From positions 1-39,446 of IMG/VR virus record IMGVR_UViG_3300044691_000222: 39,446 nucleotides of DNA; one strand, written 5' to 3'. Of this stretch, positions 2,579 through 16,669 are shown piece by piece. The position numbers and the translations under genes are program-made. Below the pieces are notes generated by a model, which saw only the letters and a list, made by a program, of their open reading frames with translations, was not told the origin of the DNA and searched no databases. Positions within the stretch are counted from its first letter, which is position 1; every line of letters starts with the position of its first letter. This DNA is from a virus.

Positions 2579-2752
2579 ATGTTCAATCCTGAAAAAGTAG
2601 AGCGTTGGGTTGAGGACGGCACAGGCTTGATTCCAGATGAGCACCCAGACGAGCATTCGTTCGTGAGAGCCACGGATTATGACCAGCTTCTAGAACTCTA
2701 CCGGGCCGCTACCGCCGCAACCGATAAAGCCGCATCTTTGGCTTCAGTCTGA
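2579..2752 (+). CDS. Small acidic hypothetical phage protein
   Basis: The 57-residue product starts MFNPEKVERWVEDG and contains DYDQLLELYRAAT. It has an excellent ribosome binding site, AGGAGG five bases before the ATG, on the plus strand. The pattern of a short N-terminal segment plus 'DYDxLLxLYxA' helix resembles small accessory proteins common in phages, but no function is assigned. Its last 55 bases overlap the end of the endolysin gene, which is convergent. It follows the RHH genes by 34 bases and probably shares their transcript. Confidence 0.7.
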   Translation: MFNPEKVERWVEDGTGLIPDEHPDEHSFVRATDYDQLLELYRAATAATDKAASLASV

Positions 2753-3276
2753 AAGCAGCTTTGCGTCCAGGCATTTCGCCTTAGCCCTACCTGGGGTCTG
2801 ATGCATTGAGCTTCGGCCACCTGACCATTCCCTGAATTCACCGCAAGCGTGAAGTGCGGGAACTTCGTTTGCAGCCCGTGCACGCCCATATTGTAGCCAA
2901 GATCCAAAAGACCCAGCTTCCACGCATCCGGCAGGGCGGCATATCCTGGAAATACGGCCGGCAGGGCCTTGTCCACGATCGTCAGGCGTCGCAGCAGCTC
3001 GGCATCAATGGCGGCATCCGGCAGGGTCAAATCGCCCCTGTAGTGCCCCGGCGCCATGCCTTTCTGCATCACGCTGACCCTGCAGAACTCCGCGGTGATC
3101 TCATCATGAGTTGCCGTCCGTCCTGCCTTCACCCATGGCAACAGGAGGGCGCTGGCAACCGCGGGGAGCATGCAGCCGATACCCGCTGTTACGTGGGCCT
3201 CTGTGTCGAGGTACATCCAATGGATGCGGGCTTCGAATGTCTCCAACTTTGCGAGTGATTCGTCGATGTAGCTCAA
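2698..3276 (-). CDS. T4-type endolysin (muramidase)
   Basis: The 192-residue product aligns with the catalytic start of phage T4 lysozyme: residues 13-34 read TFEARIHWMYLDTEAHVTAG, which places Glu15, Asp24 and Thr30 at the same spacing as Glu11, Asp20 and Thr26 of T4 lysozyme. Such enzymes cleave the N-acetylmuramic acid to N-acetylglucosamine bond of peptidoglycan. There is no signal peptide, so release needs a holin; holin candidates are far away at 26381-27530. The likely start is TTG at 3276, sharing TTGA with the stop of the upstream gene and preceded by GGAG. The C terminus holds a typical GLLDLGYNMG motif of the family. Confidence 0.88.
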   Translation of the reverse strand: MSYIDESLAKLETFEARIHWMYLDTEAHVTAGIGCMLPAVASALLLPWVKAGRTATHDEITAEFCRVSVMQKGMAPGHYRGDLTLPDAAIDAELLRRLTIVDKALPAVFPGYAALPDAWKLGLLDLGYNMGVHGLQTKFPHFTLAVNSGNGQVAEAQCIRPQVGLRRNAWTQSCFQTEAKDAALSVAAVAAR

Positions 3277-3545
3277 TTATGTCTCCTTGACAGGTCGTAG
3301 CATTCCCAGCAGCGAACCGCCAGCCGGTACTTGCGACGGCCGCATTTGCATACCTTGTTGGGTTGGTTTTTCTTGGGGTGGTGGGCCAGAATCAGCTTTG
3401 CGACTCGCTCGAGGGCTTCTCTGGCATCACGGATGCGTGTCGCCTCCGCATTCACGAGGTCGTAAAAGCATCGGTCGAGCAACTCTGCTAGATATTCAGG
3501 CTTTTGCTCCGCGACGAAGGAGGCCGTGAAGATCCGCTTCGGCAT
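3273..3545 (-). CDS. Small zinc-ribbon protein next to endolysin
   Basis: The 90-residue product is mostly helical in its first two thirds (AEYLxELLDRCFYDLVNAEATRIRDAREALERVAKLI) and ends with CKCGRRKYRLAVRCWECYD, a CxC/CxxC arrangement likely to bind one zinc. The start ATG at 3545 shares one base with the stop of the 698-residue tail protein (TGATG), and its own stop overlaps the endolysin start (TTGA). Function unknown; its position between tail and lysis genes suggests a late gene, perhaps a lysis accessory. Confidence 0.7.
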   Translation of the reverse strand: MPKRIFTASFVAEQKPEYLAELLDRCFYDLVNAEATRIRDAREALERVAKLILAHHPKKNQPNKVCKCGRRKYRLAVRCWECYDLSRRHN

Positions 3546-5641
3546 CAGTGGAATTTCGCTCGCCCTGAAATCTTGCTGTGGCCGTGGATGGCAACAGGAG
3601 CCGAAGGTGCCGCGTTGACCGTGATCGTGTCGCCCGGAGAAGTGACCGCCCCAATTGAGGCCGTGACTACGCTGGTTCCAGTCGCCACACCCGTAACCAC
3701 CCCAGAAGAGTTGATTGTTGCTTTGGCCGGCGTTGCGCTGACCCAGGTAGGGCCGGAGCAAGCCGCAGTCGATGAGTCGGAGAAGGTACTCGTGCAGGTC
3801 AGGGCGAGCGTATTGCCTACTGTGACAGTGCCAGGGTTGGGGGTTAGAGCCATGCTCGCAAGCGTCGGGGCGGAACCCGTGAACTCCAAGGCTCCGATGG
3901 CGGGCGGGTTGGGACGGGTCACGCCCGCGTAGTCGACCGTGATTCCAGCAATAGTGATGCCTGCTCCTGAGACTGCGCTACCTGTTGAGGCCGGAGCCAT
4001 GTTGCCGAAGCTGTAAGCGTGGTAAGTCTCATCCACTAGACCGGGATCGCCGCAGACCGCTGAGGACTCTCCCGTTCCTCCACAGACCCAACTGCTTTTG
4101 CCTCCGTGCGTGGCGTTGTTCGTCCAACTCGCCCCTGAGTTCGTCAGAACCGCAGGGATAGCGGGTGCTCCACCACCAGCCCCGTCCACCCCTCCAACGC
4201 TATATATAGGAGATGGGTTAGCTGCGTTACCGGAGTTGAAGAAGCCGAAGAAGACATTGTTGTTGAACTTCAGGATGTTGGTAGGTCCGAAGTCTGAGGT
4301 AGCATATTCGACTTCCAGCCCAACGCTGCCTTCGGAAAATACAGTGTTGTCCTGAAACACCGAGGGCAGTCCGGGAGTAGTGTCGATGACGATGGCAGTG
4401 TTCCCCGCCCGACAGACATCGCCCAAACTATCTCCGGTAGGAACGGGTCTTCCTGTAATCACCTGATTGAGTGCTTCACAGTTTCCGACGATCACGCTGT
4501 TCTGAATTGTGGCCGTGGCACCATCGCCCACCTTGATCTGCTGCCCTTCATTGCCGTATGTGAGGACTCTTGTTACGGTCATCGTCGATCCGGCACCACT
4601 CACGTGCTTGGCGTCCAGCCCGTCCTGCGTGTTGTAAGTTGCGGTTCCCTGATCGAAATGAACCTGCCAACCAGGAGAAGGGCTTGCAACAGAAGCTGTG
4701 CCGAAACCGTCTCCATACCCTCCCGTAACGTCGTCGCGGCAATTGACATAAGGGAGCGGATCGACCAGTGGATACTCTTCCGTGCAACCATTCCACGAGA
4801 TGTCGAAGTTAGTCACGTTGAACACACCAACCCCAGTGTTGCCGTCCCCCTTATCCGTGTTCCATCCGCTCAAACCATTCCCAACGATCTGAATGTCCGT
4901 GGAGTTGATCGGACCTGAAGGTGATCCAAGGATGCCGGTATTTACAATCCCATGTACGCGAATATCGGTCAGGGTTACATCGTGGGACAGCAGGGAGAAG
5001 TTGATCCCGTACTTAGCAAAGTCGGTTCCACCAGGACCGGCGAAATCGGTTATGTCAAGACACTGAAGGTCAACAAAGGCGGAATTTGACAGATTGACTC
5101 CGGTGTACTGTAGTGGAACCCCCATGAAGATTACATTGTCAACGCCAAATCCGCCATGAAGCTGTGTCCGCGCCGTCTGTGAGGTGCAGGAGGCGTAGTT
5201 TCCACCCCTGATGATCGTATGTTGGCCTGACGTGCCCGAAGGAGGAGAAGGCATCCCTGAGTCGTTAGAGTCTCCGCAGATGCCCCGAGCGTTGGGAGTG
5301 ATGCCGCAACCTGCCGCAGAATCCCAACCAAGGCGATAGGTAACGCCGTCTGCAATCGACCCGCGAATGGTCACAATATCCCCGCCCGCGATGATCCAGT
5401 TATAGCCGGGGTTATTGCCGCCGAACTGCTGGGTTCCGTCCTGCCAGAGAAATCGGACATCGTTAAAAGCGCATGCCTGATTGGTTCCAGACCCGGGATA
5501 AGGGGCATCAGCCAAGCCGCTACATTGGCCCGTCGTTACGTTCGAGGAGAAGCGCGTTCCCCCGTCCGGCCTGACAAACCAAGAGGTCTGCGCAAACGCA
5601 GGGAGAGAGGAAAGCAGCAACGCGAGGATGGGTATTTTCAT
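3545..5641 (-). CDS. Beta-helix tail/secreted protein with signal peptide and BIG2 Ig-like domain
   Basis: The 698-residue product starts with an apparent Sec signal peptide (MKIPILALLLSSLPAFA, cleavage predicted before Gln18). Residues about 20-520 are rich in short Gly/Asn/Thr/Val repeats such as DVTLTDIRVHGI, TVTRVLTYGNEG and ATIQNSVIVGN that look like rungs of a right-handed parallel beta-helix (pectate-lyase fold), as in tailspikes that degrade or bind polysaccharide. Residues about 585-685 match a bacterial Ig-like group 2 domain (LTPNPGTVTVGNTLALTCT through GVVTGVATGTSVVTA). AGGAG lies upstream of the ATG. A signal peptide on a virion protein would be unusual; it may instead be exported. 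Confidence 0.8.
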   Translation of the reverse strand: MKIPILALLLSSLPAFAQTSWFVRPDGGTRFSSNVTTGQCSGLADAPYPGSGTNQACAFNDVRFLWQDGTQQFGGNNPGYNWIIAGGDIVTIRGSIADGVTYRLGWDSAAGCGITPNARGICGDSNDSGMPSPPSGTSGQHTIIRGGNYASCTSQTARTQLHGGFGVDNVIFMGVPLQYTGVNLSNSAFVDLQCLDITDFAGPGGTDFAKYGINFSLLSHDVTLTDIRVHGIVNTGILGSPSGPINSTDIQIVGNGLSGWNTDKGDGNTGVGVFNVTNFDISWNGCTEEYPLVDPLPYVNCRDDVTGGYGDGFGTASVASPSPGWQVHFDQGTATYNTQDGLDAKHVSGAGSTMTVTRVLTYGNEGQQIKVGDGATATIQNSVIVGNCEALNQVITGRPVPTGDSLGDVCRAGNTAIVIDTTPGLPSVFQDNTVFSEGSVGLEVEYATSDFGPTNILKFNNNVFFGFFNSGNAANPSPIYSVGGVDGAGGGAPAIPAVLTNSGASWTNNATHGGKSSWVCGGTGESSAVCGDPGLVDETYHAYSFGNMAPASTGSAVSGAGITIAGITVDYAGVTRPNPPAIGALEFTGSAPTLASMALTPNPGTVTVGNTLALTCTSTFSDSSTAACSGPTWVSATPAKATINSSGVVTGVATGTSVVTASIGAVTSPGDTITVNAAPSAPVAIHGHSKISGRAKFH

Positions 5642-5699
5642 GGCTCTCCTGAAATGTGTTGCTTTGGGTGGTCTAGCGTTCTAAGACAGGCCGCCTCAA

Positions 5700-7118
5700 T
5701 TAATTCGAAGAGCCGAAGTTGCTTGCCCCAGCCGTAACTCCTCCGGGAGGAGTCTGCGCTGGGCCGACGCTAATACCGGATGTTGTCGAGGTTCCGAATT
5801 TGGTAGGGAATCCGAGCTGTCGAAGTAAGGCTCCGCCACCCGCCGTGTTATTGAGCGAGAAGTCTCCCGACCCGGCGTTGGTAAACGGATTCGCCGTGAG
5901 CGTAATAGCGGAATAGTTCTTGGTGAATCCCGTAGTCGTGCCGCCCCCGCCATAGGCATTGTTCATCCCGATCAGCCCCATAATCGCCACTGGGTTAGCT
6001 GCTCCGCCAATGTTGAGTATCACGCCACTCCCCCAGAAAATATTGTTTGATATCTGCATCGAGGATTGCGCAACATAGCTCAATGCTAGTGCGGAGTTGT
6101 AAAAGGCATTCCCAGTTATAGCGTAGTAGGTCGCACCTATATTGGGTGAACCAGTTACCGTACCGCCACTAAAAATGGAGTCGATGACGGCCAGTCCACC
6201 AGCAAGGTTCAACCCTCCGTTAAGGTGTATACCGTTGGCGTGGAAATAGCTTCCATAGGTATAGAAATATTGAATTGTAGTGCCGCCTAAAGACACAGCA
6301 TTAGTAGAGTTTGTGATTTCAGTGCCAACGAGGTAGATGAAGGCTACGTCATCGGGTGTCACGTTGCTGCTGTCAATAGCGGTTTGGAACCCATCAAATT
6401 TGCAGTTCAGGACTACCCAAGCCTGCCCGCTTCCGTGGGCGCTCAGCTGCCAGATTCCACTCAAGGGCGTGGCTGCGGTATTGCTGAAGCTGATGTTGCG
6501 GAAGAAGTCAGTCCCATTCGTCGATGAACCCGTATTTATGAGGGTTACACTATTAGTGGAAGTGGTAATGAGCGGCTTGGTGCCGTCGTCTCCGTGCGTC
6601 GCCTGATAGCCGATGAAATTGAGGCTTGCCACCAACAGCGTGAGCGAAGCGGTGAAGGTGTATGTCCCGGTCTGGATGTGGATCGTATTGCTCGCGGTTG
6701 AGTTCGTATTGGCCTGCTGGATGGTAAGGAGGGAGCCTCCAATATTTCCCACGCAGACATTGGCTGCTGCCCCCATCGCATGATCGAAGGTCGCGATTCC
6801 CCCAGACTGCGAAAGGATTTCGTACCAGCCAACCGTGCATCCCGTACCGCTGCCGATGTGAATAAAGTTTCCCGGCCCATGCGTAGTCGAGGTGAAGGCC
6901 GGTGAGCCGGTGCCGGTAGTCGTACCCGTCAGGGTCACCGTGATGGCCGTGCCCGCGCCTTGGCTCTCATCGGTGCCTGGAGAGCCTACCGCCTCAAACG
7001 CTCCTCCGTTGGTATCTACACCCGTAGTGCGAACGTCCCACGCCGTACCGCTGCCGAAGGTGGCGAACATCGGGATCGGCGAAAACAACAGAGCGAGATA
7101 GATAAATAGTTTTTTCAT
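5700..7118 (-). CDS. Beta-helix tail/secreted protein with signal peptide
   Basis: The 472-residue product begins with a Sec-type signal (MKKLFIYLALLFSPIPMFA, likely cleavage after Ala19) and continues GSGTAWDVRTTGVDTNGGAF, the typical entry of beta-helix proteins in which short strands repeat. Segments like NTIHIQTGTYTFTASLTLLV and NGTDFFRNISFSNTAATPL support a pectate-lyase-like solenoid. The start ATG overlaps the stop of the upstream gene as ATGA. The likely role is receptor recognition or glycan cleavage at the cell surface; no catalytic residues can be identified from sequence alone. It may be either a tailspike component or an exported protein. Confidence 0.75.
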   Translation of the reverse strand: MKKLFIYLALLFSPIPMFATFGSGTAWDVRTTGVDTNGGAFEAVGSPGTDESQGAGTAITVTLTGTTTGTGSPAFTSTTHGPGNFIHIGSGTGCTVGWYEILSQSGGIATFDHAMGAAANVCVGNIGGSLLTIQQANTNSTASNTIHIQTGTYTFTASLTLLVASLNFIGYQATHGDDGTKPLITTSTNSVTLINTGSSTNGTDFFRNISFSNTAATPLSGIWQLSAHGSGQAWVVLNCKFDGFQTAIDSSNVTPDDVAFIYLVGTEITNSTNAVSLGGTTIQYFYTYGSYFHANGIHLNGGLNLAGGLAVIDSIFSGGTVTGSPNIGATYYAITGNAFYNSALALSYVAQSSMQISNNIFWGSGVILNIGGAANPVAIMGLIGMNNAYGGGGTTTGFTKNYSAITLTANPFTNAGSGDFSLNNTAGGGALLRQLGFPTKFGTSTTSGISVGPAQTPPGGVTAGASNFGSSN

Positions 7119-9046
7119 TTGCAGGTCACCGTGAAGATCCAGCTACTTGTTCCGCTGGTAATGTTGAAAGAAAACTTGTCGTTATTGGTGATCGAAGTCG
7201 TTCCAAGACTTCCCAACGTGGTTAGGGTTCCCGCCGCCGTACCTGCTGCAATCGTCTGCGCTCCACCGGAGAAGATGGTCGAGCCGTTATCGAAGATGTT
7301 GAAGGTCAGAGCCGTTGCACCATCGGAGGCCGTCGTGAGTGCATAGCAGGTTGCAATCGTTGCTGTGTGCGAGGCAAGGAACCGGGGAGATGCATCTGTT
7401 GCCGCCGAGCCACTATTGAAGGTCCAGTTGAGATAGAGCGGATTAGACCCGACCGCTGGTGTCGTGTACCCGCCCGCCTGATTAAGAAATAGCGAAGAGC
7501 TTCCAGCGCCATTGAGGGTCACTCCGTTGACCGACAGGCCGGTTACTGCGGCTGTCGTGCTGCCGGCAGCGATGGAAGTTGAACCGAGAATGATCGGGAA
7601 GCCCGTACCGCCGCCACTCCCGCAAGGTGCTCCCGCATCGTCCAACTCCCACCACGCTCCAATCAGGGTGAATTTAGCGCAATTACCGCTGACGGGCAGA
7701 GATGCCGACGGGAAGCCAGCAATAATCAGGTCCGTGCCGACGTAGTTAGTATGCAGATTGCCATTGGTCGAGTCATAGCCGATCTCCCCTACGGCTGGGG
7801 CGGTGTAGCCTGCATGGATCGGTACTTTCAGATGCGTGGCCGAGCTGAAGTCAAATAGCCCAGTCGGTGAAGCTCCTGCACCAACACTGGCCAACGTGAT
7901 GCTTCCACCGGACGCGGCAGCCCACGAACATACGGCAGGGTTCGCCGCCGTGCAGGACAGGAGAGGGTTGCCAGCGGTCGGCTGTGCTCCGGGGAGATTG
8001 ATGGCGTAGGCCGTGACTGCGGAAGGGGCGTTGATTTGGATGGTAGAGGTCGGGGCAGCGGTCGGTGCGGTGCCCGCAGTAATCCCGATACTCCCAGCAA
8101 TTCCACTCCCGTCATTGATGATGACAGGCTGCGAGATCGTCTCTGAGCCGGGATTTGTCACCTCGTCAATATGGGAGTTTGTCGTGAGGGTTGTCGCTGA
8201 ACCGGCGAGGGGTAGGAATCCAGGAGTGAGCCCAGAAATGCCAGAACCGCCACCACCTCCGCAGCCGGTCGCGGTGGTGCAGATGGCTGATCCATTCACC
8301 GTGCTCCCCGTAGGCATCGCTACCGGGCCGCCAAACGTCGAAGCCATCGTTGGACCACACCCGATGGAGGCTCTGATAGTCGGGCTGACCTCTTGGGTTC
8401 GAGCCATGAAATCGCAGTAGTTGGCGTGGATACTTACATTGACTGCCGTTTCCGCGTTGAAGCTAAACTCTTCCGTCGTAGCCTGGGTTCCAAATGTAGA
8501 TGCCTGGAATCCATAAACGTTAGGAATGGTTGCTCCACCCGAGCGTGAAGAATTACTCGCGACAAATCCGAAGATGTCTCCTGATGCGATGGCTCCCGAA
8601 ACCGCAGGCTCTGACTGAAACCCTGTAGACGAATTTCCTGCCTTCGTGACCTCGGATTGCGCATCGTAAAGAAGGAGTTGAACTGGCACAGTTTGGTGGT
8701 TATCCTGCACGAACGCTTGAAAGGCTATCCCGCTGCCAATATCCGCGCCGTCTTGATTTACCGAAACAGAGTCTCCGGTCAGGAACGTTTCATTCGTATT
8801 CGCTCCCGAGTCATGAACGCCTTCGACTAAGAGCTTGGCTCCGCTGTTTATATCTACGACGTTAGTTCCGTCCCAAGTGAATCTTGAACTTCCAAGGCAG
8901 GTTGCACCATCGGTGCGGAGAACGGAGTTGGCGGGGAGGCCTGTGACCGTGCATCCGCTACTGCCGCCGACCTGCACATTCTTCCCGAGCTGTACCTGCG
9001 CCAAGGATGGAACTCCGAGGAGCGCCAACGCTAAAAGTATTTTCAT
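7115..9046 (-). CDS. Tail-fibre-like protein with signal peptide
   Basis: The 643-residue product starts MKILLALALLGVPSLAQVQ, a clear signal peptide with probable cleavage after Ala16. The body is Gly/Ser/Thr/Ala-rich with low-complexity repeats typical of phage fibres. It carries VNGVTLNGAGSSSLFLNQAG, a segment nearly repeated in the next upstream gene (9070-10191), so the two share a module. The C terminus (residues about 560-643) looks like a compact beta-rich receptor-binding tip ending in SSWIFTVTCK. The start at 9046 has AAGGAG seven bases upstream; an in-frame start at 9082 has no such support. Confidence 0.78.
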   Translation of the reverse strand: MKILLALALLGVPSLAQVQLGKNVQVGGSSGCTVTGLPANSVLRTDGATCLGSSRFTWDGTNVVDINSGAKLLVEGVHDSGANTNETFLTGDSVSVNQDGADIGSGIAFQAFVQDNHQTVPVQLLLYDAQSEVTKAGNSSTGFQSEPAVSGAIASGDIFGFVASNSSRSGGATIPNVYGFQASTFGTQATTEEFSFNAETAVNVSIHANYCDFMARTQEVSPTIRASIGCGPTMASTFGGPVAMPTGSTVNGSAICTTATGCGGGGGSGISGLTPGFLPLAGSATTLTTNSHIDEVTNPGSETISQPVIINDGSGIAGSIGITAGTAPTAAPTSTIQINAPSAVTAYAINLPGAQPTAGNPLLSCTAANPAVCSWAAASGGSITLASVGAGASPTGLFDFSSATHLKVPIHAGYTAPAVGEIGYDSTNGNLHTNYVGTDLIIAGFPSASLPVSGNCAKFTLIGAWWELDDAGAPCGSGGGTGFPIILGSTSIAAGSTTAAVTGLSVNGVTLNGAGSSSLFLNQAGGYTTPAVGSNPLYLNWTFNSGSAATDASPRFLASHTATIATCYALTTASDGATALTFNIFDNGSTIFSGGAQTIAAGTAAGTLTTLGSLGTTSITNNDKFSFNITSGTSSWIFTVTCK

Positions 9047-9069
9047 GGAACTCCTTATTTTGTTTCGAG

Positions 9070-10191
9070 CTAGTTTGTCCATTCGACCCAGGATGAGAGC
9101 GTGAGCGTTCCGCCACTGGTCCCAACCTCGGCAAACGTCACGGAATAAGTCCCGGCTGGAGGGACGACGAAGGTAACGCTGGCCAATCCGCCGCCGTTGG
9201 TCGTTCCATTTGCCGCTACCTGTTGTCCATTCACGGAGGCGGTTATCTGACTAAAGTGCCCGACGTTGCAGGTACAGTTGCCCGTAACTGCGACCTCGAG
9301 GCGCGATGCCCCGTTGGTGTAGGTAGTGCCGAAGGAGTTGGACGGGAACGCCATCGTTGTTGTCGGGGGCGCCGAGCCAGCAGGTGCCGTATAGCCGCCT
9401 GCTTGATTCAGAAACAGCGTAGAACTTCCCGTAGAACTGAGAGGCACGCCGTTAACGCTGGTGGGGTTGATCGCTCCCGGCAAAGTCACATAGGCCGTAG
9501 TAGCCAGCTTCGTGCTGTTATCGCTTGGGGGCTGGGTGGTGGCTGTGATGGCGCTGGGAATGGCAGACGTGCCGCTTATCTGGTTTCCCGCAGCAGCATA
9601 GAAGGCCAGCTGGCCAATCGTGCCGGCGTTGATTAGCCCGCCCCCCAGAGAGGCTAGAGCCGTCGCGGGGGTCGTCGTGTCGAATGTCCATAGAGTAGGG
9701 GTTCCCAGAGGACCAATGACGACATGAGCCGCCCCGATGGTGCCGACGTTGAAGGTGTGGTTCGTTTTGTTGATGAAGATTGCTGCATCGCAGTCCATGC
9801 CGGTGACGGAAATATTCGCAATCTGCACACTGCCTGCGGGGCCGCAAGGCATGAGGTTGCCCTCGTTGACGTTATCAACGCTCCAGATCGTTGCTCCCAA
9901 AGCAGTCTTCAGGATGAACTTGTAGGAGCTTCGGCCGACCCAGATATTCGCCCCGCCGGCTGCGTCGAGGATGATGGGGTTCGTGTTGACAGAGGTGCCG
10001 GTGGAATCGGTGTAGGTCGGCTGGGGGGTGGTGGTGCCTGCAATGTAGGTGAAAAGCGAGCACCCGGCGCAGGGCCCGCCCGAGGCATTGACGAACGTCA
10101 CATGCGGGATCGTGGCTGGTGCAACTGGCGCCTGGGCGTGAGTTACGGCGCACAACATCGCTGCCAGAGCTATCTGGAGAATTTTCTTCAT
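9070..10191 (-). CDS. Tail fibre with head-binding-type domain and signal peptide
   Basis: The 373-residue product begins with a signal peptide (MKKILQIALAAMLCAVTHA, cleavage likely before Gln20). Residues about 28-110 (PTYTDSTGTSVNTNPIILDA followed by GGANIWVGRSSYKFIL) match the domain found at the N terminus of many podoviral tailspikes that joins the fibre to the tail. A middle linker contains TQPPSDNSTKLATTAYV, a widespread tail-fibre motif, then the module VNGVPLSSTGSSTLFLNQAG shared with the 7115-9046 protein, and a C-terminal beta-rich tip. RBS GAGG lies seven bases before the ATG. It is the most likely true virion fibre in this cluster. Confidence 0.82.
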   Translation of the reverse strand: MKKILQIALAAMLCAVTHAQAPVAPATIPHVTFVNASGGPCAGCSLFTYIAGTTTPQPTYTDSTGTSVNTNPIILDAAGGANIWVGRSSYKFILKTALGATIWSVDNVNEGNLMPCGPAGSVQIANISVTGMDCDAAIFINKTNHTFNVGTIGAAHVVIGPLGTPTLWTFDTTTPATALASLGGGLINAGTIGQLAFYAAAGNQISGTSAIPSAITATTQPPSDNSTKLATTAYVTLPGAINPTSVNGVPLSSTGSSTLFLNQAGGYTAPAGSAPPTTTMAFPSNSFGTTYTNGASRLEVAVTGNCTCNVGHFSQITASVNGQQVAANGTTNGGGLASVTFVVPPAGTYSVTFAEVGTSGGTLTLSSWVEWTN

Positions 10192-10232
10192 TTATGCCTC
10201 ATTTTGGGGTAGACTTCTCGTCCGAGGTTCTT

Positions 10233-10463
10233 ATGTATACGGTCGATGACCTTCAAGCTAGACGGCGGGAATTTCTAAAGTCAGATACTTGGACAGCGAT
10301 AAAAACGAGAAGGCGCAACGAAAATGCAAAGATATTAGCCGGAACTTTCGTAGTTTATGCCGCAGCTTATCTACTTGGAATCTACCAGTTGGTTTACAAG
10401 CTCAACCTGATCGCAGTGGCTGGATTCTTTATCTACAATCTGCTCCGCAAGCATGAAGATTAA
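10233..10463 (+). CDS. Lone plus-strand small membrane protein (moron candidate)
   Basis: The 76-residue product starts MYTVDDLQARRREFLKSD and has a basic N-terminal helix followed by two hydrophobic segments (AGTFVVYAAAYLLGIYQLV and LNLIAVAGFFIYNLL), so a small inner-membrane hairpin is likely. GAGG lies five bases before the ATG. It is inserted in opposite orientation between fibre and ejection genes and its end overlaps the convergent ejection gene by four bases. Such isolated reversed genes in late regions are typical of morons expressed from a prophage, for example superinfection-exclusion proteins; that function is inferred from context only. The promoter could not be located with confidence. 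Confidence 0.7.
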   Translation: MYTVDDLQARRREFLKSDTWTAIKTRRRNENAKILAGTFVVYAAAYLLGIYQLVYKLNLIAVAGFFIYNLLRKHED

Positions 10464-12880
10464 GGCTTGATGCTCTTTATTAGAGCCTTCATTGCGGGTG
10501 AGCCTAGAGAGAGGCTCGAAGCCCTGACCAGCAGGCTCTTACCTTGCGGCGTTTTTCCCAAAGCTTCAATATCGGAACGCGTCAGGGTTGCCGCAGGATC
10601 GCTGCCAATGTGGTCTAGAATCTTCGCCTCTCCCTGACTCGCCCACTTCGCAGAGCCTTTCAGCGGCGCATTCATGATTGATTCAGTAAATGCAGGGTTA
10701 GTCAGCTTGCTAGCCGAAAACCTTTGAGCTAAAGGGTAGGCAAGCGGAGATAGGCCCTCCCCTATCGCCGCAGGGTTACCCGTCAAGACCCCACCTGCGG
10801 CTTTCGCAAGCCCATAACCCATCGCCCCCAATTCAAGATTCTTCTGCGCCAGCTTTCCCGATCCTGCCGGATTTGCGTCATAGTTCACCGTTCTAGCGGT
10901 GCGAGCGAGGTCGTCAAGGCTCTGGATTTGATCTGGAGTCAGAACGGCCCCCAGTTTCTCTTTCTGCGCCCGGGTGAATCTAGAGGAAAGATTCTTCAGG
11001 TCTGGGAGTTCATTCCCGGCAGGGCTCAGTAAGCGGCTTATGGTCTGCCGCTGAAGTTGGGGAATCACATCTTTGCTGCCGATCGCCTGCGCCGCTTTGG
11101 TGATCTGCTGTATGCCTTCGGGTCCAGCGTCGAGCGCTGAAGTGGCAGCCGTCAGTCCATCCTTAGCGTTGATGATCTTGTGGACATCACTTCGGGGGTT
11201 ATCGTAGGGTCCTGGAGTCTGAATCTCCCTGGTCAGATCATGCAGGTCTGACATCTGACGCGGGCTCAGTACGCCGCCGAGTCGCTCTTTCTGCGCCTTG
11301 GCGAAGCGGTCAGGGAGTCCGGGCAGGTCAGGCGTTCCGTTCCCTGTAGGGTCCATGAGCCTGTCGATGGTCTGCCGCTGCAAGTGCTGATTCAGTTCCG
11401 GAGTCTCTAAATCAGAGCCAGCCTGCCGGATCTGCTTCGCTACCTGCGGGCTGATATTAGACAGGCTGTTAGCTGCAGTAGACCCATCCTGCGCCCTGAC
11501 GATGTGGTAAAGCGGGCTCTGGGGGTTGTCGTAGGTCTGCTTCATCCCGGCGTAAATCTTGTTCGCCTCGCGGAACTTCGCCTCATCGGCAGTAGACAGG
11601 CCGGAGGATGCGCCAGTCATAGATTCGTCCACCTTGCCGGTGAGCTGCTTCAGCCATCCCTCAGCATTCGAGCCGACGATGTCGGGGGAGCGGTACATGT
11701 TCATCAGGTCTGAGCGCATCTTGTGCAGATCTGACCACGTATCGAGCTTGGGAGCCTCGGAGGACGTATCCGCTAGGCTCTTGACGATCGACCATGCCCG
11801 CCCAGGCGCGCCAGAGAGCAGTTCTGGGTGGTTGGCGTAATAGTTCTGATTGTCCTTGATGATGCCCTGAGCCTGCGTACGCACAGCCTTCATGTCAGGA
11901 AGGGTATTGCCTACTTTGCTATCCAGATCCTTGAATAAGGCCGAAGCTTGGTCATTCAGAAGGGTCTGGTGATTACGCAGGGATTCTTGCACAGTGTTGC
12001 CGAAGTCCTCGCGCGACATGGTTTCAGGCGTAGCTCTATCGAGGATGGCGGTTGCCTTTTCCGGCAATCCGGACTGCTTTTCAAGTATGTCCTTGTGCTG
12101 CAGGAGGGCATCTTTGACGGCGTTCCCAAATTCCTCGCGAGACATTGCATCGGGATGCGCCGTATCGAGGATGCCTTGCGTGTGAGTCTGAAGCGCGTTC
12201 ACGTTGGCCGCATTGTTGGTCTCAAACTTCGAAGATCCTCCAAGGGAATGCTCGGTTACGCGCTTCGTATTGACGGCAAGCGGAGATCCGGTCGCCTGGG
12301 CGGTGTCGAGGTTCACGCCCTGCGATACCGCAGTGTTGTAGCGCTGCCGCGGTGTAACGGTGTCGCCGGGGATAATCTCATCCAGCTTGGAGCCTCCGAC
12401 GACGCCGGCGCGCGCCCCGCGGTACTGGTCAGGGATGTCTTTGACGAAGCGCGCTGCAACCGGAACCGCTGGAGCAATGACCCTGGCTGCCGTATCTCCG
12501 AGGACTGCCCCGCCGACGAGATTTCCCGCTGCCTGTGCTGGATTTGCCATTGCTGACTTTCCGAGTGCGACGGCAGTATCAATCGGATGGGCAATCGTAT
12601 GGCCGATAGCCTCAAGAGTATCCATCGGGTGAACGATCGGAGAGGCTGCTCCTTGGATTGCTCCCGCGCCGAACTCCTGAGCCTTGTTGGTCAGCCACGA
12701 ATGGCCCTTCTCCTGTTCAGGCGTGACCGTCGTCAACTCATCGAATTTGTCTTTCGCCCTCTGCAACAGGCTGCGCGTGTCCGCAGCTTGCGGCAAGGGC
12801 TGAGCCTTGCTGAGGTCGAGTTGCACCGGAGCCTGGGGAAGTGGCTGCGCTTTGCTGAGGTCGAGGGTTACGGCTGCCAT
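10460..12880 (-). CDS. Large ejection (internal virion) protein with tandem repeats
   Basis: The 806-residue product occupies the place of the P22 gp16-type ejection protein, downstream of two further internal proteins. The N terminus carries a duplicated LDLSKAQPLPQA (residues 6-17 and 21-32). Residues about 60-130 are Ala/Gly-rich with amphipathic helices (GAGAIQGAASPIVHP, AGNLVGGAVLGDTAARVIAP) that could insert into membranes. Two repeat sets follow: about 42 residues twice (AMSREEFGN and TMSREDFGN, near 235-318) and about 108 residues twice (centred on LQRQTIDRLMDPTGNGTPDL and LQRQTISRLLSPAGNELPDL, near 450-665). Start overlaps the previous stop as TAATG. Role in DNA delivery is inferred from position and composition. 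Confidence 0.7.
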   Translation of the reverse strand: MAAVTLDLSKAQPLPQAPVQLDLSKAQPLPQAADTRSLLQRAKDKFDELTTVTPEQEKGHSWLTNKAQEFGAGAIQGAASPIVHPMDTLEAIGHTIAHPIDTAVALGKSAMANPAQAAGNLVGGAVLGDTAARVIAPAVPVAARFVKDIPDQYRGARAGVVGGSKLDEIIPGDTVTPRQRYNTAVSQGVNLDTAQATGSPLAVNTKRVTEHSLGGSSKFETNNAANVNALQTHTQGILDTAHPDAMSREEFGNAVKDALLQHKDILEKQSGLPEKATAILDRATPETMSREDFGNTVQESLRNHQTLLNDQASALFKDLDSKVGNTLPDMKAVRTQAQGIIKDNQNYYANHPELLSGAPGRAWSIVKSLADTSSEAPKLDTWSDLHKMRSDLMNMYRSPDIVGSNAEGWLKQLTGKVDESMTGASSGLSTADEAKFREANKIYAGMKQTYDNPQSPLYHIVRAQDGSTAANSLSNISPQVAKQIRQAGSDLETPELNQHLQRQTIDRLMDPTGNGTPDLPGLPDRFAKAQKERLGGVLSPRQMSDLHDLTREIQTPGPYDNPRSDVHKIINAKDGLTAATSALDAGPEGIQQITKAAQAIGSKDVIPQLQRQTISRLLSPAGNELPDLKNLSSRFTRAQKEKLGAVLTPDQIQSLDDLARTARTVNYDANPAGSGKLAQKNLELGAMGYGLAKAAGGVLTGNPAAIGEGLSPLAYPLAQRFSASKLTNPAFTESIMNAPLKGSAKWASQGEAKILDHIGSDPAATLTRSDIEALGKTPQGKSLLVRASSLSLGSPAMKALIKSIKP

Positions 12881-14475
12881 TATGGTGCAACTCCCAAATC
12901 CTGCCCTTTGTCGTTCGTGTAGTGGTTTTTTCCGTCACTTCCGGGGGCGACATGGGTTGCGCCCGGAGGAGGCCCGGAAGCTGCTGCTTTGGGCGTCTGA
13001 GGTAATTCAGACCCATACATCCTCCCCAGCACGGGGTTATTGCCGATGCGCGAGGTCGTCTGCGATCCTACCGCCCCCCTGATACCATCGATCGACGCAG
13101 CCCTCTGTGCAGGGCTTTGCTTTGCCCCAACGAGTTGAAGGGCCTGCAGTCTGGACGAGTCACTTCCCTGCCCACCGCCCATAACCTTGGAATAATCGTC
13201 AGCCACACCCAACGCTAGAGATGCATATTTGGCGATTGGCCCGCTGCCGGTAGCTGCCTTCTGCCAATCCGCGAGGCTGTTGAATGCAGGGATGAGCCCG
13301 CCTGGGATGTCCTTTCCCGCATCCGTAAGCTGGTCGAGCGTGCCACCTTTATCGATGAGCGATTTGGCCGAACCGAAGAATGCAACGTTGGCCGGCGACT
13401 TGGCAACGCTGAACTGTGCGTCGGCTGTCTGTGCGTTGTACTTCCCGCCACTCAATTGATGCGCTGCGTTCAGCGTGTTTGCGATGAAGTCAGGTGTTGC
13501 GCCTCGAGCCTTCAGTTCCGACAGCGTTGCGTCTCCGCTAACCAATAGTTGCGCTGCGGCGTTCGGGTCTCCCTGTGACAGCGCCTGCCTCTGTCTTGCC
13601 AGGGACATTTCGTAAGGCTGTCGAGCCGCCGCTTCTGCGCCCGCCTTTTGCCCTGCCAGTCTCGCCTCTCCTGCTTGAATCTTTGCGGCGCCCGGTGCCG
13701 TTCCCATCGCCACCGCAGCCGGGGATGGGGAATACAGAGGGCTGGTGGGGTCTATCGACGCATTTATCTTCTTTGTTTCGGCTTGTGCCTGTCCAGTCAT
13801 CGCCTCCTGATGCGCTTGCTGGGCAATCTGAGACTGCGCCATGAAGGTTTTGGTGAATAGGTCCAGGCCTTGCCGAATCTTCGCAGGGTCTCCGCCCGAC
13901 TGCTGCAACAATTGCTGCGCCGCCTGTGCATGCTGAGGGTCGAGCAGGCCCTTTTGAACCAAGTCCTGAGTTGTCGCTTGCAGAGCCTGCGGAAGCTGGG
14001 CGTCAGGCACCTGTTGAGGGTCGATGAGCGGAGAGAGCGCGCCGGAAATCAGGTCGCCCTTCTGCTTCAACGTCTCCACCTGCGCCTTTCCTCCATCCGC
14101 GGTGTTCTTGAACGCAGTAGCGGCCGCCTGCTGCTGAGTCAGGACTTTTGACTTCAGCCCCATCACTGCTTCGGCCGATCCGCCATTCTTGAGGATGAGG
14201 GGATAGAGTTCGTCAATCTGCTTGCCGTCCCACTGCTGCATGGCGGTGGTCTGCGCCTGCTGATCCTTGATGGCTTGCTGCTGCATCTGGAGTTGACCGG
14301 CGCCCTGCTGCACGCCCTGCTGAAGCTGCTGAAGGCGCAACGGTGCCTCCTGCTGGTTTAGCTGCAGCTGCTGTGACTGATTCCTAAGAGACTGAAGCTG
14401 GCCGTATTTCTGCAGTAGGTCAGGCTGCTGCTCAGGGGGACGTGCGTTCAACGCGACGAGAGGAATGCTAGACAT
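12880..14475 (-). CDS. Gln/Ala-rich ejection (internal virion) protein
   Basis: The 531-residue product is strongly enriched in Gln and Ala with long predicted helices; residues about 20-100 (LQKYGQLQSLRNQSQQLQLN and LRLQQLQQGVQQGAGQLQMQ) look like coiled coil. It has no signal peptide or membrane segment. Its position between the other two internal proteins corresponds to the P22 gp20-type ejection protein, though sequence similarity cannot be judged here. A clear RBS (GGAGA, six bases before the ATG) fixes the start at 14475. The stop overlaps the next gene as TAATG. Confidence 0.68.
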   Translation of the reverse strand: MSSIPLVALNARPPEQQPDLLQKYGQLQSLRNQSQQLQLNQQEAPLRLQQLQQGVQQGAGQLQMQQQAIKDQQAQTTAMQQWDGKQIDELYPLILKNGGSAEAVMGLKSKVLTQQQAAATAFKNTADGGKAQVETLKQKGDLISGALSPLIDPQQVPDAQLPQALQATTQDLVQKGLLDPQHAQAAQQLLQQSGGDPAKIRQGLDLFTKTFMAQSQIAQQAHQEAMTGQAQAETKKINASIDPTSPLYSPSPAAVAMGTAPGAAKIQAGEARLAGQKAGAEAAARQPYEMSLARQRQALSQGDPNAAAQLLVSGDATLSELKARGATPDFIANTLNAAHQLSGGKYNAQTADAQFSVAKSPANVAFFGSAKSLIDKGGTLDQLTDAGKDIPGGLIPAFNSLADWQKAATGSGPIAKYASLALGVADDYSKVMGGGQGSDSSRLQALQLVGAKQSPAQRAASIDGIRGAVGSQTTSRIGNNPVLGRMYGSELPQTPKAAASGPPPGATHVAPGSDGKNHYTNDKGQDLGVAP

Positions 14476-14484
14476 GGTTATCTC

Positions 14485-15369
14485 CTAATCCGAGTTAGGC
14501 CCATAAGGGCCGTTGGCTCCTGCGCCTGCACCACCTCCGCCACCATAGCCACTCTTAGATGTCAGCAATGCGAGATTGGAGAGATTGCCTGCTGTGCCGC
14601 TAAGCGCCCCGCCCCAGGCATTGGCCGCTCCGACGTATCCAGAGGCCGTAGCCGCGCCCGCATTGTTGTATTGCTGCCCGACGTTCTGACCTGTGGTGAG
14701 GAGGTTGCTGGTCACGTTGTTCGAGGCTGCCTGCCCCTGGTTGGCCAGGTTGGTTGCGGTCGTTTGCCCCGTACCAGATAGAGCCGCCAGCTTGTTGTAC
14801 TGATTCGACTGGTTGGTGTTGTAGGCGTTGTAGTTGGTGTCGAAGGTGTTGAGCGCACGGTTATAGACGTTGCCGTATTCGTTCGAGGCGTAGTTTTGTG
14901 CATAGGTATTCAGATCCTTCGCCGTGCCTCCGGTGACGACAGAGCCGCGCGCCGCTGCTGATTTCTGAATCGCATCCGTGCCGAGTTGCAAGCGTGCCTG
15001 GTAGCCGGGGTCGTTCTGCTCCGTGAGTCCGGTGGGCGCTTGGAAGGTGCCAGAATACGGCGTCGTCAGCGAGCCTTGGGCTACTCCTGAGCCGTTCGCC
15101 GTCCCGCCCGTGCCCAACCCATACTGAAGAGCGTTGAGCCCGCTCTGCCCGGCCTGTAGCCACGGAGCCTGCTGTGCCTGCGAGGTGTCGTATTGCTGCT
15201 TCTGGAAGTCGAGGGCTTTCTGGGATTCCTGCTGTTGTAGGTCCGCGGCATGGTTGGCGGCGGCGGTCTGTGCATCGGCTGCGCTACCGGCTGCGCTGGC
15301 TCCGATCGCAGCACTGCCAATGCTTCCGACTGCCCCGATAGTTCCGGCTACGATTGCTGCGGTTGACAT
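14485..15369 (-). CDS. Ejection/DNA-transfer protein, P22 gp7-like
   Basis: The 294-residue product opens with an Ala/Gly hydrophobic segment (AAIVAGTIGAVGSIGSAAIG) then DAQTAAANHAADLQQQESQK and a long Asn/Gln/Tyr-rich middle (YASNEYGNVYNRALNTFDTN), ending in a Gly-rich tail. This composition and layout are characteristic of a widespread podoviral internal protein family annotated as DNA transfer protein gp7. Such proteins leave the capsid with the DNA and help it cross the envelope. It directly follows the acyltransferase gene on the same transcript with a GAGG upstream of the ATG. Confidence 0.78.
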   Translation of the reverse strand: MSTAAIVAGTIGAVGSIGSAAIGASAAGSAADAQTAAANHAADLQQQESQKALDFQKQQYDTSQAQQAPWLQAGQSGLNALQYGLGTGGTANGSGVAQGSLTTPYSGTFQAPTGLTEQNDPGYQARLQLGTDAIQKSAAARGSVVTGGTAKDLNTYAQNYASNEYGNVYNRALNTFDTNYNAYNTNQSNQYNKLAALSGTGQTTATNLANQGQAASNNVTSNLLTTGQNVGQQYNNAGAATASGYVGAANAWGGALSGTAGNLSNLALLTSKSGYGGGGGAGAGANGPYGPNSD

Positions 15370-15372
15370 AGG

Positions 15373-15819
15373 CTAAATCCTCTTCGTGAAGGCGTAATCA
15401 CTCAATCGGTATCCGAGCGCTTGAAATAGTTTCGTGTGGTCGAAATGCACCTTGCACGAGAAATAAATCTTGATAGCGCCCATCCGATGGGCTACATCTT
15501 CGGTGAATCGGACCAGCTTTACCCCGGTGCCAGATCGGCATTCGGGAGATATGTAGTATGCGTCCACGATGAGCATCAAAGGCGAAGTGCGGTAGTGCAA
15601 ATGCTTGCTTGTGACGGCAAGCAGATAGCCGACCATGCGGCCATCCTCACGAACGGTGATGACCTTGAACATGCCGATATCTTCCATCGCCTTCATCTTG
15701 GCGAAGTCGAGCGCAATTTCGAGGTCTAAGTCGAGCCCCAACTCCTGCCAGTGGGCATAAACAAGGTCTTTCGACTCGGAGGCCCACTCTTCGACCGGTT
15801 CAACCTGAAATGTCGTCAT
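15373..15819 (-). CDS. GNAT-family acyltransferase in the virion gene cluster
   Basis: The 148-residue product has the GNAT fold pattern: MFKVITVREDGRMVGYLLAV strands, then the acyl-donor binding loop SPECRSGTGVKLVRFTEDVA (R-x-G-x-G type) preceded by the strand LMLIVDAYYI, and a C-terminal FQALGYRLSDYAFTKRI strand-helix. GNAT enzymes transfer acetyl or longer acyl groups from CoA, or in some branches from acyl carrier protein, to amines. Related genes occur among podoviral structural genes. Here the ATG overlaps the stop of the acyl carrier protein gene as ATGA, a direct coupling that suggests the carrier may supply the donor. The target is unknown. Confidence 0.85.
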   Translation of the reverse strand: MTTFQVEPVEEWASESKDLVYAHWQELGLDLDLEIALDFAKMKAMEDIGMFKVITVREDGRMVGYLLAVTSKHLHYRTSPLMLIVDAYYISPECRSGTGVKLVRFTEDVAHRMGAIKIYFSCKVHFDHTKLFQALGYRLSDYAFTKRI

Positions 15820-16016
15820 TGAACCGTCTGCGCGGCCATGAACAGGTCGTTCACTGTGTTGATGTGCGGCACGACAGCATCAGAGATGTTGCCGATGCTG
15901 ACAATCAGGTCGAGGAAATCAAGCGAATCCATGCCAAGGCTGTCCAGCCTCGTTTCAGGGGTTATGTCCTTGCCGGTATGCTCTTTCACTACGGTCATCA
16001 CATCTTCAATCGTCAT
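15816..16016 (-). CDS. Phage-encoded acyl carrier protein
   Basis: The 66-residue product is a minimal acyl carrier protein: helix I (TIEDVMTVVKEHTG), the linker ITPETRLDSLG, the phosphopantetheine attachment motif LGMDSLDFLDLI with modifiable Ser31, and a C-terminal helix (VNDLFMAAQTV). It is slightly shorter than bacterial AcpP (about 78 residues). It would need a host phosphopantetheinyl transferase, since none is encoded here. Both edges are coupled: ATG overlaps the stop of the upstream tail protein, and its stop overlaps the GNAT start, each as ATGA. No fatty-acid synthase or acyl-ACP synthetase gene is nearby. Expression with late genes suggests an acylated phage or envelope target. 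Confidence 0.88.
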   Translation of the reverse strand: MTIEDVMTVVKEHTGKDITPETRLDSLGMDSLDFLDLIVSIGNISDAVVPHINTVNDLFMAAQTVQ

Positions 16017-16669
16017 GTCGCTTGCACCTGTGCCGTCAAAAGTCCGTTCGTGTACGTTTGGCTTCCTTGTGTACCGCCTACAGTGAGTGCCGCCGTGACA
16101 ATCACTGCGTTGATTCCGAACGCTCCCGCTGTCGCTCCGATAACTAAGCCCTGAGCATTGACCGTGACAGTCGCGATCGCATAAGTACCCGACACCACAC
16201 CAGAAGCTGGCATCTGTGTTGCCGGATCGATCGTTCCCGTCAGTCCGCTGAATCCTGGGTGGCTTGGATCCCATGTCGCGCCTCCAAAGACAAGCACTTG
16301 CCCAGCCGCCGGTGCCGACGCAACGAGTGCCTGATGTGCGACCACCCCGCCCGCCAATGGGCTCCCCACGCCGTCATTGATGTGGTCAGTAGTCTTGTTC
16401 AGGTAGGGCCGCGAGAAGTCCACCATTGGGGCGCTCGCTGCGCCGGTGTCATCGATGAGCCCAACCGTGGTGCCGATTCCTTCAGTACGTCCGGTGATTA
16501 CGGTAGAAGCGTTGATTTCCCCGATGAGCTGGCCAATCTCATTGAGCCCGTTCTGTAACTGCGTGTTCCACTGCTGCAGCACCTTCAAAAACGAAAATGT
16601 AGCATTGCCGTCCTTGTCTACGATCGGGGAGCGGCTGGCTAGGAATGTCGTTGCCGGTTTGAGTGCCAT
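16013..16669 (-). CDS. Tail-associated structural protein
   Basis: The 218-residue product opens with a short motif PIVDKDGNATFSFLKVLQQW typical of podoviral proteins that sit after the gp10 gene, followed by a coiled helix (NTQLQNGLNEIGQLIGEINA) and a beta-rich, Gly/Ala/Thr-rich C-terminal half with SGVVSGTYAIATVTVNAQG, a motif seen in fibre shafts. It is probably a virion tail component, perhaps a tail needle or fibre connector, but the exact role is not determined. The ATG directly follows the stop of the preceding gene (TAA-ATG), and its stop overlaps the ACP start. Confidence 0.65.
   Translation of the reverse strand: MALKPATTFLASRSPIVDKDGNATFSFLKVLQQWNTQLQNGLNEIGQLIGEINASTVITGRTEGIGTTVGLIDDTGAASAPMVDFSRPYLNKTTDHINDGVGSPLAGGVVAHQALVASAPAAGQVLVFGGATWDPSHPGFSGLTGTIDPATQMPASGVVSGTYAIATVTVNAQGLVIGATAGAFGINAVIVTAALTVGGTQGSQTYTNGLLTAQVQAT

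Follow-up and report, generated by a model that had tools for sequence, protein, structure and literature searches.

Virion proteins normally assemble in the cytoplasm, and the assembly of tailed phages is taught as a cytoplasmic process that is complete before lysis. In P22, finished heads can reportedly receive their tailspikes in vitro, which completes assembly. Filamentous phages provide a case of virion proteins synthesised as Sec precursors ahead of assembly, namely coat proteins that are integrated in the membrane and extruded through the envelope. Use of the host Sec system by phage proteins made late in infection has also been described for the SAR endolysins and other exported lysis proteins, for example in JG068 (PMC3765740), and Lambda Lom, encoded between the tail spike and tail fibre genes, is an outer-membrane protein that bears a signal peptide (SP) and is expressed in lysogens (PMC12309495). 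Literature searches combining signal peptides or signal sequences with tail proteins, which covered open-licence papers, returned no precedent for Sec signals on tailed-phage fibres, a report elsewhere being possible.

The locus described here consists of four consecutive minus-strand genes (3545-10191), each with a predicted Sec SP, in an IMG/VR virus record of 39,446 bases that was analysed over its full length (hereafter the window). In contrast to the coat proteins of filamentous phages, the products would be soluble fibres of a tailed, lysing phage, and in contrast to SAR endolysins, lytic enzymes whose anchor stays uncleaved, they would be structural fibres. Lom forms a beta-barrel in the outer membrane, whereas gene 4 of the window has a predicted docking domain and gene 1 resembles annotated virion proteins. 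Gene 4 is akin to the tailspikes of P22, Sf6, Pam1 and Pan3 in this docking domain, by profile and by fold and within a P22-like podovirus, but differs from P22-type tailspikes in having an SP before the domain and a CxxC pair in place of L..G. The docking domain, signal-bearing lysis proteins and Lom are already known; the assembly route is possibly new.

Judged by its gene families, the window phage is a temperate P22-like podovirus. A gene-family search recovered the P22-like set of terminase subunits, portal (phrog_156), scaffold, major head protein (phrog_283) and holin (phrog_3427), together with a packaged-DNA stabilisation protein (phrog_578) and an integrase. Since the integrase is much closer to Acidobacteriota (43% identity, E=3e-83) than to the Burkholderia phylum (best E=1e-8), and since the nearest relatives of gene 1 are found in Tunturiibacter phages, the host of this soil phage is probably an acidobacterium. 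The block runs on the minus strand from ejection proteins through the four SP genes to a lysozyme-like ORF, an order that is the same in the related contig L003. The three ejection or internal proteins upstream of the fibre genes (10460-12880, 12880-14475 and 14485-15369, spanning 10460-15369) have neither SP nor Cys, and the third was assigned to phrog_598 (DNA ejection) by a PHROG search. The ORF closing the block (2698-3276) is called lysozyme-like from position and motif only; it matched neither a PHROG nor, above cut-off, a Pfam family, and L003 has its counterpart at the same position after the fibres. A GNAT-type acetyltransferase-like gene (15373-15819; phrog_1249) also sits within the tail/ejection block and is kept in L003. 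The only SP-less fibre candidate seen in the window is a 218-aa protein without family (16013-16669).

Gene 1 (3545-5641; 698 aa) is predicted to encode an exported protein with 14 mature Cys and a C-terminal Ig-like domain (Pfam Big_2); its SP, MKIPILALLLSSLPAFA (5591-5641), is followed by Q and is identical in L003. Gene 2 (5700-7118; 472 aa, 3 Cys) would encode an exported fibre-like protein, with the weakest SP among the four, MKKLFIYLALLFSPIPMFA (7062-7118), followed by T; it had no PHROG family, no Pfam family above cut-off and no match among phage records. The product of gene 3 (7115-9046; 643 aa, 12 mature Cys) is likewise predicted to be exported and fibre-like, and its SP, MKILLALALLGVPSLA, together with the conserved mature N-terminus QVQLGKNVQ, occupies 8972-9046. 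Both elements are unchanged in L003, where 20/20 aa are identical with 2 synonymous changes before the two sequences abruptly diverge into different bodies; the related contig L004 reads QVQIGKNVQ. Gene 3 thus appears to have kept its signal and anchor while its body was exchanged, as in phage fibre modules. Gene 4 (9070-10191; 373 aa) is predicted to encode an exported fibre made up of an SP (MKKILQIALAAMLCAVTHA with Q at +1, 10132-10191; counterparts in L003 and L004), a tailspike head-binding domain and a variable C-terminal region.

SPs were called with a rule-based scorer written for this analysis, which takes into account n-region charge, the h-region and positions -3/-1. A basic n-region, a hydrophobic core and small residues at -3/-1, as expected for Sec and signal peptidase I, were found in the four products, gene 2 being marginal at -3. 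The original prediction of four consecutive tail-fibre-like products with Sec signals starting at 5641, 7118, 9046 and 10191 is therefore borne out by the ORFs and the scorer. It had further assigned A-x-A type cleavage sites to all four, which holds for three, with clean A/S/T-x-A sites, but not for gene 2, where the site is a poor M-F-A or T-F-G. No lipobox Cys was seen on inspection of the four cleavage sites, and RNA folding near the start of gene 4 gave nothing out of the ordinary. That the signals reflect chance or wrong start codons is hardly credible. The scorer is home-made and gene 3 has an alternative in-frame ATG upstream at 9082, but an AAGGAG ribosome binding site precedes 9046; RBS-like sequences also stand before genes 1 and 4, and gene 2 overlaps the stop of gene 3 by 4 nt. 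Besides the four genes, the scorer flags one weak internal-GTG candidate among the other 35 called genes of the window. The pass rate was 1.8% per gene for residue-shuffled N-termini taken from all genes, and 5-16% for shuffles of the four SP-like compositions. Because relatives repeat the pattern (3/3 in L003, 4/4 in L004), and with recurrence across many phages, RBS placement and the shuffles pointing the same way, chance and misread starts are rejected, in agreement with the earlier claim that four in a row exceed chance.

Behind its SP, gene 4 carries what profile and predicted fold indicate to be a genuine head-binding (virion-docking) domain of the P22/Sf6/Pam1 tailspike type (residues about 31-110; 9862-10101). 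The domain profile matched PDB entries 7eeq (Pam1 'Tailspike head-binding domain', E=7e-17) and 9vyg (Pan3 tail spike, E=4e-17). An AF2 model of the isolated domain (residues 20-112, pLDDT 89) retrieved the tailspike N-termini of Pan3, Pam1, P22 and Sf6 in Foldseek with TM of about 0.7-0.8; the full-length model (pLDDT 37) was too poor to read a beta-helix spike fold. The domain is N-terminal in gene 4 only in the mature form, once the SP is removed, and in PBR31, P26218 and other podovirus relatives it begins at the initiator Met, without SP. No known docking domain was recognised in genes 1-3.

A total of 114 homologues of the domain were compared, 8 with an SP (weak in L042) and 106 without. 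At the position where SP-less homologues have L-A-G-G, gene 4 has the CxxC pair C41-A-G-C44 (10060-10071). All 5 homologues with this CxxC (PCxGC replacing PLxGG) have an SP, and none of the 106 SP-less homologues has a Cys at either position (Fisher P=4e-7). IMG/VR was also scanned blind for PCxGC at the level of DNA patterns, which gave 15 contigs, 13 of which had an in-frame ORF (three already known, namely L003, L004 and L081, and 10 new), and an SP occurred just upstream in 13/13 of these ORF-backed matches. Cys parity was examined in 46 non-redundant SP-bearing tail-module proteins, the modules having been picked by SP and not by Cys: the mature Cys count was even in 40 of the 45 that contain Cys and odd in 5 (P=4e-8), versus 40 even and 49 odd among 89 control SP-less proteins from the same contigs. 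Cys density was 1.68% in SP-bearing proteins versus 0.81% in SP-less ones. Gene 2, with its odd count of 3, is unlike the group trend. In gene 1, 12 of the 14 Cys are kept in its homologue Tunturi_1 gp17 at 36% identity, and 10/13 in its homologue Tunturi_4 gp114.

These Cys patterns and their link to the SP provide strong indirect evidence for export and disulfide bonding. The Cys pairs could instead oxidise after release into the medium, which is less likely because CxxC is strictly linked with SP. It is also very unlikely that the hydrophobic N-termini are not for export and anchor the fibres in the tail or the membrane during cytoplasmic assembly. Such a role would conform to the usual assembly site of virion proteins, but the cleavage-site consensus is conserved, the domain lacks any such extension in SP-less homologues, and neither the link between CxxC and SP nor the bias towards even Cys counts would be expected in reduced cytoplasmic proteins.

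The reading that we favour, with a probability of about two in three, is that the fibres leave the cytoplasm via Sec, become oxidised in the periplasm and dock on finished tails at lysis. The four genes would encode tail fibres or spikes synthesised as Sec precursors, which would cross the inner membrane via Sec and be cleaved by signal peptidase I, the mature fibres then folding and forming disulfides in the periplasm. Once holin and endolysin open the cell, cytoplasm-built heads with tails would meet the finished fibres, whose docking domains, by now N-terminal, would fasten them to the tail. The export half draws on independent sequence signatures (SP, Cys parity and CxxC). Inferential support for export and disulfides is good, and the four proteins themselves are presumably exported and cleaved. 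For the virion-docking half, the head-binding domain, the position among the late genes and the absence of any other evident fibre gene lead us to infer docking at or after lysis and the presence of all four products, not just that of gene 4, on the virion. The cultured, lytically growing Tunturi_1, _2, _4 and _5 share the trait and speak for this model, whereas the odd Cys count and weak cleavage site of gene 2, the lack of a recognised docking domain in genes 1-3 and the SP-less tail proteins of Tunturi_3 speak against it. Among the three explanations offered originally, the best fit is the one in which fibres are added beyond the inner membrane once lysis has begun, because a P22-type domain lies behind the SP, the genes belong to a late structural block and four lytically growing isolates share the trait; decoys and lysogen surface proteins explain less.

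As an alternative, lysogens or infected cells might release the proteins to the surface or in soluble form (as decoys, adhesins or factors of superinfection exclusion); they would then form no part of the virion, and their head-binding domain would be a relic. Lom offers a parallel (PMC12309495), the window phage has an integrase, and two chromosomal loci (L169 and L170, see below) combine SP and head-binding domain in the absence of recognised virion genes in the flanks examined. We nevertheless regard this as unlikely: many divergent proteins have retained the head-binding domain at their mature N-terminus, the genes lie within the late structural block, runs of up to six such genes occur in lytically growing isolates, and the virion would be left without an evident receptor-binding protein. 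It is quite unlikely that the products are secreted as free depolymerases which clear exopolysaccharide around lysing cells and so free the progeny, with few or none on the virion. Export and disulfides would suit an extracellular enzyme, and in Tunturi_1 and _2 the relatives of gene 1 lie near genes annotated 'tail spike' or 'pectin lyase', but the virion-docking domain of gene 4 would be unexplained, PHROG and Pfam searches recognised no catalytic family in genes 1-4, and periplasmic proteins would still need lysis to exit the cell.

Export, oxidation and late docking of fibres would, if true, place the last assembly step elsewhere than in the cytoplasm and under oxidising conditions, with an effect on the evolution of receptor-binding proteins (disulfides, size and number). 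It would also hint at how Acidobacteriota phages cope with the host envelope, and SP with even Cys would make a simple sequence mark by which to find the receptor-binding proteins of uncultured soil phages. With both the Tunturi phages and their hosts cultured, the idea is testable now.

The original prediction had proposed to look for the pattern in related phages, and it is present in L003, L004 and Tunturi_1, _2, _4 and _5. SP clusters thus occur in 4 of 5 cultured phages of Tunturiibacter (Acidobacteriota), of podo-, sipho- and myovirus types. They comprise gp12, 13, 14, 16 and 17 in Tunturi_1, gp13, 14, 16 and 17 in Tunturi_2 (gp12 being partial in the stretch compared), gp111 (from an upstream TTG), 113 and 114 in Tunturi_4, and the six consecutive gp337-342 in Tunturi_5, with 18, 6, 0, 0, 14 and 12 mature Cys. 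The relatives of gene 1 in Tunturi_1, _2 and _4 are annotated 'virion structural protein'. These phages (PMC11924767) resemble the window phage in that their SP-bearing tail genes occur in runs and mostly have even numbers of Cys, but represent other virus lineages (podo, sipho and jumbo myo); in the paper describing them 'signal' occurs only in the reference list, so the SPs were not reported there. Together with the window phage, these genomes suggest that tailed phages can complete their fibres by a non-cytoplasmic route. We lean towards the view that fibre-making moved out of the cytoplasm several times independently in the tailed phages of Acidobacteriota (podo-, sipho- and jumbo myoviruses), whose fibres would use Sec for export, be oxidised in the periplasm and join the virion only at lysis.

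Tunturi_3, whose host strain is that of Tunturi_1 and _2, had no SP on twelve tail-region proteins, with few Cys; export is therefore not required by the host, and a host requirement as its cause is contradicted. The SP-less, Cys-poor tail proteins of this phage (L014, 7573-29886) offer a natural contrast for asking what export is for.

SP-bearing proteins with the head-binding domain were also found in named Acidobacteriota, in Sulfopaludibacter (L025) and in an Acidiferrales MAG (L018). L146 contains a run of SP genes. Outside the Acidobacteriota, single SP proteins adjoin tail genes (PBR31 orf35, P26218_24 and L031), so the trait is not entirely exclusive to phages of this phylum. These proteins, located at 5154-5963 of L005 (PBR31 orf35), 4694-5203 of L007 (P26218_24) and 10243-12498 of L031, are of small to middle size and lie beside the tail spike.

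Finally, a prophage survey by phrog_578 gave matches in 4/396 Acidobacteriota and 9/299 Burkholderia-phylum genomes. G001 has an SP fibre, the contig of G224 stops just behind the match, and no SP tail gene was found in the stretches of G199 examined. In the regions examined of Burkholderia-phylum prophages, no clear fibre gene following the ejection genes was seen to have an SP, a comparison too small to count alone. The Acidobacteriota genomes G247 and G287 have chromosomal fibre genes with SP and head-binding domain (L169, 13693-19680, and L170, 13584-14426); since both genomes share the neighbouring genes, the locus may derive from a prophage that was domesticated or has decayed. An Acidobacteriota contig with a phrog_578 match (L153) further contains a 4203-aa open frame (2921-15532) that probably encodes a giant ejection or tail protein.
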